Positions 1,233 through 2,818 of a DNA stretch of 5,001 nt are shown in pieces. The position numbers were made by a program, and so were the translations under genes. Within the stretch, counting starts at the first letter, position 1. Every line of letters starts with the position of its first letter. The notes below the pieces were generated by a model. It searched no databases and was not told where the DNA came from. It worked only from the letters and a program-made list of their open reading frames with translations. This DNA comes from Candidatus Rokuibacteriota bacterium (GTDB lineage: Bacteria; Methylomirabilota; Methylomirabilia; Rokubacteriales; JACPHL01), in contig JACPHL010000163.1 in the NCBI GenBank assembly GCA_016188625.1, positions 1 to 5,001 of the forward strand, read 5' to 3'.

Positions 1233-2279
1233 ATGCTGCACGAGGCGGATCCCGCGGAGGCGATCGAGCAGCTCTACGCGCAGGGGGTGACCGACGGCCT
1301 CCCCGTCGTCCCGCCGACCCGGGCGCGGGTCCGGGTCTTCGTGGAGGCCTCGGGGCGCCCCGCCGACGAGCTGATCGCCCGCCTCCCGCCCAACTTCGGC
1401 CGCGCTACCATCGAGAAGATCGCCATCAACGCCGTCCTGGCCGGCTGCCGTCCCGAGTACATGCCGGTGGTCATCGCGGGGGTGGAGGCGATCTGCGAGG
1501 AGGCCTTCGACCTCCACGGCGTGGCCGCGACCACCCACTTCGCCTCCCCGCTCGCCATCATCAACGGCCCGATCAGAAAGGAGCTGGAGATCAACTCGGG
1601 GGCCAACGTCTTCGGCCAGGGGTGGCGGGCCAACGCGACGATCGGCCGGGCCCTCCGGCTGATCATGGTCAACCTCGGCGGGGCGAGGCCCGGCGTGATC
1701 AGCATGTCCACCTTGGGCCACCCTGGCCGCTACACCTACTGCATCGGCGAGAACGAGGAGGAGAGCCCCTGGGAGCCGCTCCACGTCGAGCGCGGCTTCG
1801 CGCCGGGGGAGAGCACCATCGCGGTCTTCGCTGGCGAGGCCCCCCACGGGGTCTACGACCACCGGAGCCGGGGCGCGCCGCAGATCCTCGCCTCGATCGC
1901 CGGGAGCCTGGCCGTGATCTCCAACTACCGGAGCACGGGCTGGGGTGATACCCTGATCGTGCTGTCCCCCGAGCACGCCCGGACGATCGCGGGGGACGGC
2001 TGGGACAAGCCCAGGATCCGGCAGTGGCTCTGGGAGCGGCTCCAGAAGCCGGTGCGGGAGCTGGTCCCGGACGCCGAGTGCGGCGAGGGGCTCCCGGAGA
2101 AGGTCCTGGCGCGCTACGCCGATCCCGCCCGTGAGGAGACCCTGATCCCGAAGTTCCGCGCCCCCGAGAACCTGATCGTCGTCGTCGCCGGCGGCACGGC
2201 CGGGCGCTTCTCGGCCGTCATCCCGGGCTGGACCTTCCCGGGCGGGAGCCAGCTCGTCATCCGAAAGATCCAGCGTTGA
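1233..2279 (+). CDS. Conserved-looking 348-residue protein, likely partner of the UGSC selenoprotein
   Basis: I do not recognise a named family. The ATG at 1233 has a good Shine-Dalgarno sequence 7 bases upstream. No signal peptide or membrane segment is evident, so it is probably cytoplasmic. Notable segments are an N-terminal helix followed by GVTDGLPVVPPT (residues 18-29), TIEKIAINAVLAGCRPEYMPVV (59-80), FASPLAIINGPI (103-114), a Gly/Asn-rich stretch GANVFGQGWRANATIGRA (123-140), VNLGGARPG (146-154) and a C-terminal VVAGGTAGRFSAVIPGW (317-333). It has four Cys residues (C72, C88, C170, C283), of which C72 in AGCRPEY sits in the most motif-like context. The stop at 2277-2279 is 11 bases from the next ATG and overlaps that gene's Shine-Dalgarno, so the two are probably translationally coupled. 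By context it may be the larger subunit or substrate-binding partner of the selenoprotein. The gene is certain; the function is unknown. Confidence 0.85.
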   Translation: MLHEADPAEAIEQLYAQGVTDGLPVVPPTRARVRVFVEASGRPADELIARLPPNFGRATIEKIAINAVLAGCRPEYMPVVIAGVEAICEEAFDLHGVAATTHFASPLAIINGPIRKELEINSGANVFGQGWRANATIGRALRLIMVNLGGARPGVISMSTLGHPGRYTYCIGENEEESPWEPLHVERGFAPGESTIAVFAGEAPHGVYDHRSRGAPQILASIAGSLAVISNYRSTGWGDTLIVLSPEHARTIAGDGWDKPRIRQWLWERLQKPVRELVPDAECGEGLPEKVLARYADPAREETLIPKFRAPENLIVVVAGGTAGRFSAVIPGWTFPGGSQLVIRKIQR

Positions 2280-2286
2280 AGGAGGG
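2279..2286 (+). promoter_or_regulatory. Ribosome binding site fixing the selenoprotein start at 2291
   Basis: AAGGAGGG begins on the last base of the preceding stop codon and lies 4 bases before the ATG at 2291. It rules in that ATG over the in-frame TTG at 2276, which has no upstream Shine-Dalgarno and would contain this site within its own coding region. Confidence 0.8.
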
Positions 2287-2290
2287 AGCT

Positions 2291-2818
2291 ATGGTCGTGG
2301 AGTACCTGGACCCGACCGATGCGGTGATAGTGACCCGCACGATGGCCGTGCGGCCGGCCAGCCTCGAGGGGAAGGTGGTGGCGCTGCTGGACATCTCCAA
2401 GCCCCAGGGGAACCACTTCCTCGACCGGGTGGAGGAGCTGCTCCGGGAGCGCGCCCGCCCGAAGGCGATCCTCCGGCGGACGAAGCCGACCTTCGCCAAG
2501 CCCGCCCCGGAGGACCTCCGGGCCGAGCTGCTCGCCGAGGCGGACCTCGTCATCGAGGCGCTCGCCGACTGAGGGTCGTGCACCACGTGCAGTGTGCACG
2601 ACGGCGTCTTCTTCGAGGATCAGGGCAGGCCGACGGCCACCATCGCCACCACCGAGTTCGTCAAGGCCGCCCGCGCCCAGGCCGAGGCCCTGGGGCTCCC
2701 CGCCTTCCGCGTGGTGGCGCTCCCGCACCCCATCCAGCCGTTGACCGAGGCCGAGGTGCGGGCCCTGGCCGACAAGGCCTGGGACGAGATCGTCGAGCGC
2801 CTGACCCGCCCGGCCTGA
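2291..2818 (+). CDS. UGSC-family selenoprotein, with in-frame TGA (Sec) at 2570-2572
   Basis: Read through the TGA at 2570-2572, this is one 175-residue protein with selenocysteine at residue 94. The Sec site reads A-D-U-G-S-C-T-T-C-S-V-H-D, giving U94, C97 and C100 in a U-x-x-C-x-x-C arrangement. Before it come LDPT (6-9), LEGKVVALLDISKPQGNHFLDRVEELL (25-51) and LLAEADLVIEALAD (80-93). After it come GVFFEDQGRPTATIATTEF (105-123), LGLPAFRVVALPHPIQPLT (134-152) and a final helix. Both halves have almost exclusively G/C third positions, and a 9-bp hairpin lies just after the TGA, so this is recoding and not a nonsense mutation. UGSC is a selenoprotein family known to me from metagenomic selenoproteome surveys; its function is unassigned. 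The U-x-x-C-x-x-C pattern recalls the selenoprotein subunit GrdB of glycine reductase, which hints at thiol/selenol redox chemistry; that is inference. It directly follows the 348-residue gene. An alternative, two separate genes, is unlikely because the second half lacks a ribosome binding site. Confidence 0.92.
2570..2572 (+). other. Selenocysteine codon (in-frame TGA)
   Basis: This TGA is preceded by GCC GAC and followed by GGG TCG TGC, encoding U-G-S-C. The frame continues for 82 sense codons to the true stop at 2816-2818. It is the only in-frame stop in the gene, and it falls exactly on the residue that is Sec (or Cys in homologues) in the family as I recall it. Confidence 0.9.
2575..2602 (+). 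promoter_or_regulatory. Bacterial SECIS element (hairpin for SelB-dependent UGA recoding)
   Basis: GTCGTGCAC (2575-2583) pairs perfectly with GTGCACGAC (2594-2602), a 9-bp stem starting 2 nt after the TGA, with a 10-nt loop. The loop can tighten further: with C2584 bulged, A2585-T2593 and C2586-G2592 pair and leave a 5-base apical loop GTGCA (2587-2591). This gives an apical loop 15-19 nt after the TGA whose first base is G, close to the usual bacterial SECIS geometry (loop roughly 16-37 nt downstream, G at the loop start, a bulge below it). The element is also coding, specifying residues from the UGSC motif to H-D-G, which limits how freely its sequence can drift. The stem is visible; SelB binding is inferred. 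Confidence 0.82.

Follow-up and report, generated by a model that had tools for sequence, protein, structure and literature searches.

A UGSC-family selenoprotein gene of a Rokubacterial genome, its conserved partner and a possible reductase function

The window, that is, the whole 5,001-nt stretch of DNA analyzed here, holds at 2291-2818 on the forward strand a reading frame whose sole in-frame stop is a TGA at 2570-2572. Does this codon encode selenocysteine and, if so, what might the protein do together with the gene that precedes it? The features bearing on the first part of the question are:

2291..2818, + strand: UGSC-family selenoprotein gene, 175 aa with Sec94 (PF24696 and NF041046 matches, translation)
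2570..2572, + strand: in-frame TGA, read as Sec94 (TGA in 48/48 close homologues; Cys in distant ones)
2279..2285, + strand: Shine-Dalgarno-like AAGGAGG before ATG 2291 (seen in sequence)

Family and conservation of the internal TGA

From the TGA onward the residues read U-G-S-C-T-T-C, in the context ...EALAD-U-GSCTTCSVHD..., so that a single frame broken only by this codon, as claimed earlier from the letters of the DNA, is confirmed from frame and translation. The upstream gene ends in a TGA at 2277-2279, and the ATG at 2291 lies 11 nt downstream of that stop, shortly after the AAGGAGG; the downstream half, whose first start is a GTG at 2594, has no Shine-Dalgarno-like sequence, again in agreement with the sequence-only reading.

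The read-through protein matches PF24696 (E = 5.8e-51, 173.5 bits against a cut-off of 25) over residues 5-172, on both sides of the TGA, and the NCBIfam model NF041046 at 162.4 bits (cut-off 125). The [U/C]-G-S-C motif, invariant in the UGSC family alignment, is present as U94-G-S-C97. All 48 distinct homologous genes compared, from metagenome-assembled genomes (MAGs) of Rokubacteria, Deltaproteobacteria, Chloroflexi and Granulosicoccaceae, carry a TGA codon at the Sec94 position, which is also retained in Acidovorax and Paracoccus; distant homologues from Natrinema, Halorientalis, Roseovarius, Arthrobacter, Embleya, Variovorax and Halalkalicoccus have Cys there. Homologues thus extend across both sides of the TGA, with U in the close relatives and C in the distant ones.

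The gene is a further member of an already known family, not a novel kind of selenoprotein: it resembles the UGSC-containing selenoproteins (PF24696, NF041046; PMC2398784) in its full-length match, its motif and its in-frame TGA, and no feature excludes membership. The earlier proposal of a known family with a clear gene partner is borne out, and what is added here, to the family and to that proposal alike, is the conservation of the partner as a family of its own, a SECIS stem and a likeness to GrdB. The family is among the commonest selenoprotein families of aquatic metagenomes (PMC2398784), and within the phylum it occurs in 72 of 95 genomes, many of which have 4-8 copies; one genome gives 12 matches. 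The selenoprotein richness of Methylomirabilota has already been reported, since a 2026 review cites 63 predicted selenoprotein genes for one of its MAGs (PMC13188914).

The sequence-only reading had further held that standard annotation would lose the redox centre. This stands in part: the annotated UGSC protein of plasmid p2-T1 of Acidovorax sp. T1 stops at the TGA and the annotation on plasmid pFER4 of Paracoccus ferrooxidans is split there, but such loss does not always occur, as the NCBI model already names such proteins "(seleno)protein".

Stem-loop downstream of the TGA

2586..2600, + strand: predicted bacterial SECIS, with stem CGUGCA 2586-2591, loop GUG 2592-2594 and stem UGCACG 2595-2600 (pairing, covariation, invariant AGT)

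Just 3' of the TGA the synonymous sites are frozen, with a mean entropy of 0.34 bits versus 0.93 bits at other invariant codons of the gene (Mann-Whitney p = 0.001). The Ser101 codon is AGT in 47/47 genes with Ser at this position, while elsewhere in those genes AGT accounts for only 1 of 255 Ser codons. The 6-bp stem at 2586-2600, closed by a GUG loop that begins 20 nt past the UGA, is paired in 99.2% of cells, a value equaled by 0 of 500 shuffles, and a compensatory change from C-G to G-C is seen in Acidovorax, in Paracoccus and in the second UGSC gene of the same genome. The small apical loop just downstream of the UGA also contains the G that the loop-G criterion for bacterial SECIS elements calls for (PMC1088965). 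Because it accounts for the conserved nucleotides, including the frozen synonymous sites, and itself carries the compensatory change, this stem-loop is likely the bacterial SECIS. Two other pairings were rejected: a longer one at 2575-2602 has one pair broken in 13 of 22 sequences and no covariation excess, and a hairpin at 2579-2591 lacks covariation. Single-sequence folding downstream of the TGA (z = -1.4) is not decisive.

Selenocysteine machinery

The source assembly (2.6 Mb, 84% complete) encodes a tRNA-Sec (Rfam 75.7 bits; ARAGORN tRNA-SeC, anticodon tca), which shares one 6.9-kb contig with selA and selB. A selD gene lies at C179:1347-2267; it has an in-frame TGA itself and probably encodes a Sec-containing selenophosphate synthetase. 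The four genes selA, selB, selC (tRNA-Sec) and selD, for which the sequence-only reading had suggested looking, are therefore all present in the same genome, and nothing that it had named as contrary evidence (missing selB or selC, an unrelated residue 94, no homologues spanning the TGA) was encountered.

Taken with these observations, the TGA at 2570-2572 almost certainly encodes selenocysteine. That it is a genuine stop, the locus then being a pair of distinct ORFs or a gene in decay, is what a table 11 reading yields, but it has next to no chance of being right given a TGA conserved in 48 genes of several phyla, an invariant stem-loop behind it, Sec machinery in the genome and a second half without a ribosome binding site.

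Partner gene

1233..2279, + strand: partner gene, 348 aa, of a family without Pfam or NCBIfam name (upstream of UGSC in 38/40 loci; fusions)

The product of 1233-2279 gave no family match in Pfam or NCBIfam. A homologue of it lies immediately 5' of UGSC in 38 of 40 genome loci, with a gap of -7 to +46 nt. The order is reversed in a second pair of the same genome (contig C178), where UGSC precedes the partner with an overlapping stop/start TGATGG, and haloarchaeal plasmids likewise have UGSC first; the UGSC protein of contig C178 carries a W-type motif, UGSCTSW. C72 and C170 of the partner never vary across 19 diverse members.

The two proteins also occur fused. In Variovorax boronicumulans a CGSC domain is joined to the partner, and in Sporomusa and Vibrio a single protein has an N-terminal UGSC-like domain (PF24696 scores of 28.3 and 24.9 bits, cut-off 25) followed by a C-terminal partner domain. 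The motif of the latter two has degenerated to MGTS, with both U and C lost, which means that some of the superfamily does without U/C chemistry; the genes for these proteins (L098 8212-9936, L099 8383-10068) adjoin or lie near aconitase X and DUF126 genes. An apparent Rokubacterial fusion, seen as stop-to-stop frames of ~530 aa, was rejected, as the two genes lie in different frames there. The pairing, though strong, has an exception in Haladaptatus, whose partner gene has no UGSC detected in its vicinity.

Fold matches of the partner are weak (class I fumarase, E = 4e-4, TM-score 0.29; chorismate mutase, Z = 6.2 over 93 residues) and are not taken as functional evidence. Searches of PDB sequences with UGSC, the partner and GrdB gave no significant match, and literature searches found no paper describing the partner or tying UGSC to GrdB.

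Remote similarity to GrdB

A profile comparison with hhalign of 17 diverse UGSC sequences with 12 Rokubacterial GrdB sequences gave a probability of 93.7 (score 56, E = 2e-7, this and the other E-values of the comparison being pairwise, without database correction) and superposed the Sec columns of the two families; a narrower UGSC profile still gave a probability of 86.8. Control scores were at most 18.1 for 30 GrdB column shuffles, 19.7 for the reversed profile and at most 21.9 for unrelated profiles. Against the shorter PrdB-like proteins only a weak match was obtained (probability 23). What UGSC has in common with GrdB (PF07355) and PrdB is a UG[ST]CTxC motif followed by E-x-x-G-x-P-t, a profile match with Sec on Sec and, in relatives of the UGSC gene, an association with thioredoxin reductase.

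There are differences as well. UGSC has 175 residues whereas GrdB has ~437, it lacks the N-terminal GrdB domain, and its partner is not GrdE; GrdB belongs to Stickland operons, while UGSC is found in catabolic and plasmid settings. PF07355 found no match in 32 UGSC members at E-values up to 10, and the idea that the partner is a pyruvoyl GrdE subunit was dropped, as the two show no similarity (hhalign probability 0.2). UGSC is not filed as GrdB for these two reasons, the absent PF07355 match and a partner unrelated to GrdE. Full-length GrdB selenoproteins are encoded in Rokubacteria too, LTSTUGTSTRCGA being an example of their motifs. GrdB-like selenoproteins are numerous in this group, some full-length with GrdE-like neighbours and others, of a shorter class, carrying VUPVCHQSGG or AUGLCNQAVG motifs.

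The likeness might have arisen by convergence, limited to a short UGxC helix motif, and so say nothing about function: the aligned region covers only ~80 columns, and masking the motif lowers the probability to 41. We consider this rather unlikely, as the masked score of 35.5 is still about twice that of the best of the 30 shuffles, and the E-x-x-G-x-P-t segment that follows the motif matches as well. Remote homology to GrdB is accordingly our preferred reading of the profile match; that UGSC works like GrdB is a step beyond it, which we infer.

Gene neighbourhoods

Downstream of UGSC, the window encodes a YnfA family protein, an IclR regulator and an SDR, which indicate no substrate. A VWA/CoxE-like protein is encoded directly upstream of the pair (1-1167); CoxE-like proteins make up 8 of the 128 proteins scanned among Rokubacterial UGSC neighbours. 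Elsewhere in Rokubacteria, 17 loci have LigB a short way downstream of the pair, with LigA next in most of them, and in seven an FmdA-like amidase follows the pair. Plasmid copies of the pair sit among TRAP, TTT, CoA-transferase, PEP-mutase-family and aconitase-X genes. Together these neighbours point to a catabolic setting. On the IncP plasmid p2-T1 of Acidovorax sp. T1, the TGA-containing UGSC gene and its partner form part of a catabolic-looking cassette near IS1071.

No trxB is present in the window, and in the genome loci, Rokubacterial and other, homologues of the trxA and trxB queries were not found next to the pair. Thioredoxin reductase genes above the NCBIfam cut-off adjoin the pair in Roseovarius and Arthrobacter (the latter also with trxA) and lie within 2 kb of it in Variovorax SRS16; in Haloterrigena and V. 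boronicumulans, thioredoxin reductase-like genes scoring below that cut-off adjoin the pair or lie close to it, as does a broken one in Neorhizobium. All of these associations come from a plasmid set that is small and non-random, with no background rate.

Plasmid pFER4 of P. ferrooxidans carries a Sec island (region 1.309-1.341 Mb) in which tRNA-Sec (1.314 Mb), a thioredoxin reductase-like gene, trxB-selA (1.320 Mb), the UGSC-partner pair (1.329 Mb) and selB (1.334-1.336 Mb) fall within ~23 kb. The plasmid has no selD above the cut-off.

Proposed function

We propose, with a probability of roughly 0.55, that UGSC and its partner form a two-subunit, thioredoxin-fed Sec/Cys reductase acting on a catabolic substrate. 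The proposal draws on homology, fusion and neighbourhood, and in it the formation of a complex, the chemistry, the electron donor and the substrate class are all inferred. SelB and tRNA-Sec would insert Sec at the UGA of 2570, guided by the stem-loop at 2586-2600, to give the 175-residue selenoprotein, which would associate with the 348-residue partner as a two-subunit enzyme. In the UGSC subunit, a helix would present the selenol of U94 at its N terminus and C97 would serve as the resolving thiol, an arrangement like that of the UxxC of GrdB and PrdB in glycine and D-proline reductase, and the partner may bind or activate the substrate. After turnover, thioredoxin and thioredoxin reductase would reduce the U94-C97 selenenylsulfide. 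If the pair of residues is reduced in this way, the enzyme would be a reductase, presumably acting on a catabolic substrate of carboxylate type or derived from aromatics. Counting against this model are the missing PF07355 match, the weak alignment with PrdB-like proteins, a partner unlike GrdE, the negative result for trxA and trxB homologues next to the pair in the genome loci, and the two MGTS fusions.

The pair could instead be a Sec/Cys lyase, hydrolase or isomerase, cleaving for example C-S or C-N bonds with no net reduction, in which case thioredoxin reductase would merely keep the selenol reduced. Such an activity would agree with the aconitase X and PEP-mutase-family genes nearby, with the occurrence of MGTS variants that lack U and C, and with the partner's faint resemblance to class I fumarase. 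We regard it as unlikely: a TM-score as low as that of the fumarase match carries little weight, and the invariant U/C-x-x-C pair and the trxB association suit a redox cycle better.

The predicted fold bears on another reading, a thioredoxin-fold UxxC selenoprotein with a general antioxidant role. A Trx-like fold has been suggested for UGSC (PMC2398784), reviews group the family with Trx-fold selenoproteins, and its UxxC redox motif is common to the Trx-like, Grx-like and Prx-like selenoproteins. The structure model of UGSC (pLDDT 90.5, pTM 0.86) points to a different topology: it is an alternating alpha/beta domain in flavodoxin/CheY-like order, with Sec94 where helix 95-110 begins, following the central strand 86-92. 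Among the structural matches listed for the model are CheY-like, lumazine-synthase-like and similar folds, and no Trx-fold chain. A dedicated partner and catabolic operons speak against a general antioxidant role as well, and we find this reading quite improbable.

Implications

A broader reading of the two-subunit reductase, which we put forward tentatively and hold to be somewhat less probable than not, is that UGSC and its partner constitute a separate GrdB-type class of Sec/Cys reductases outside amino-acid fermentation, which would degrade aromatic or organic-acid substrates. This class would have multiplied many-fold in Rokubacteria and would be carried on bacterial and archaeal plasmids, one of which also bears a thioredoxin reductase and the greater part of the Sec machinery. 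What the analysis adds to the known UGSC family is functional context: with the partner, the GrdB link, the trxB neighbours and a plasmid of a cultured Paracoccus bearing tRNA-Sec, selA and selB, the function of UGSC is now a testable question.
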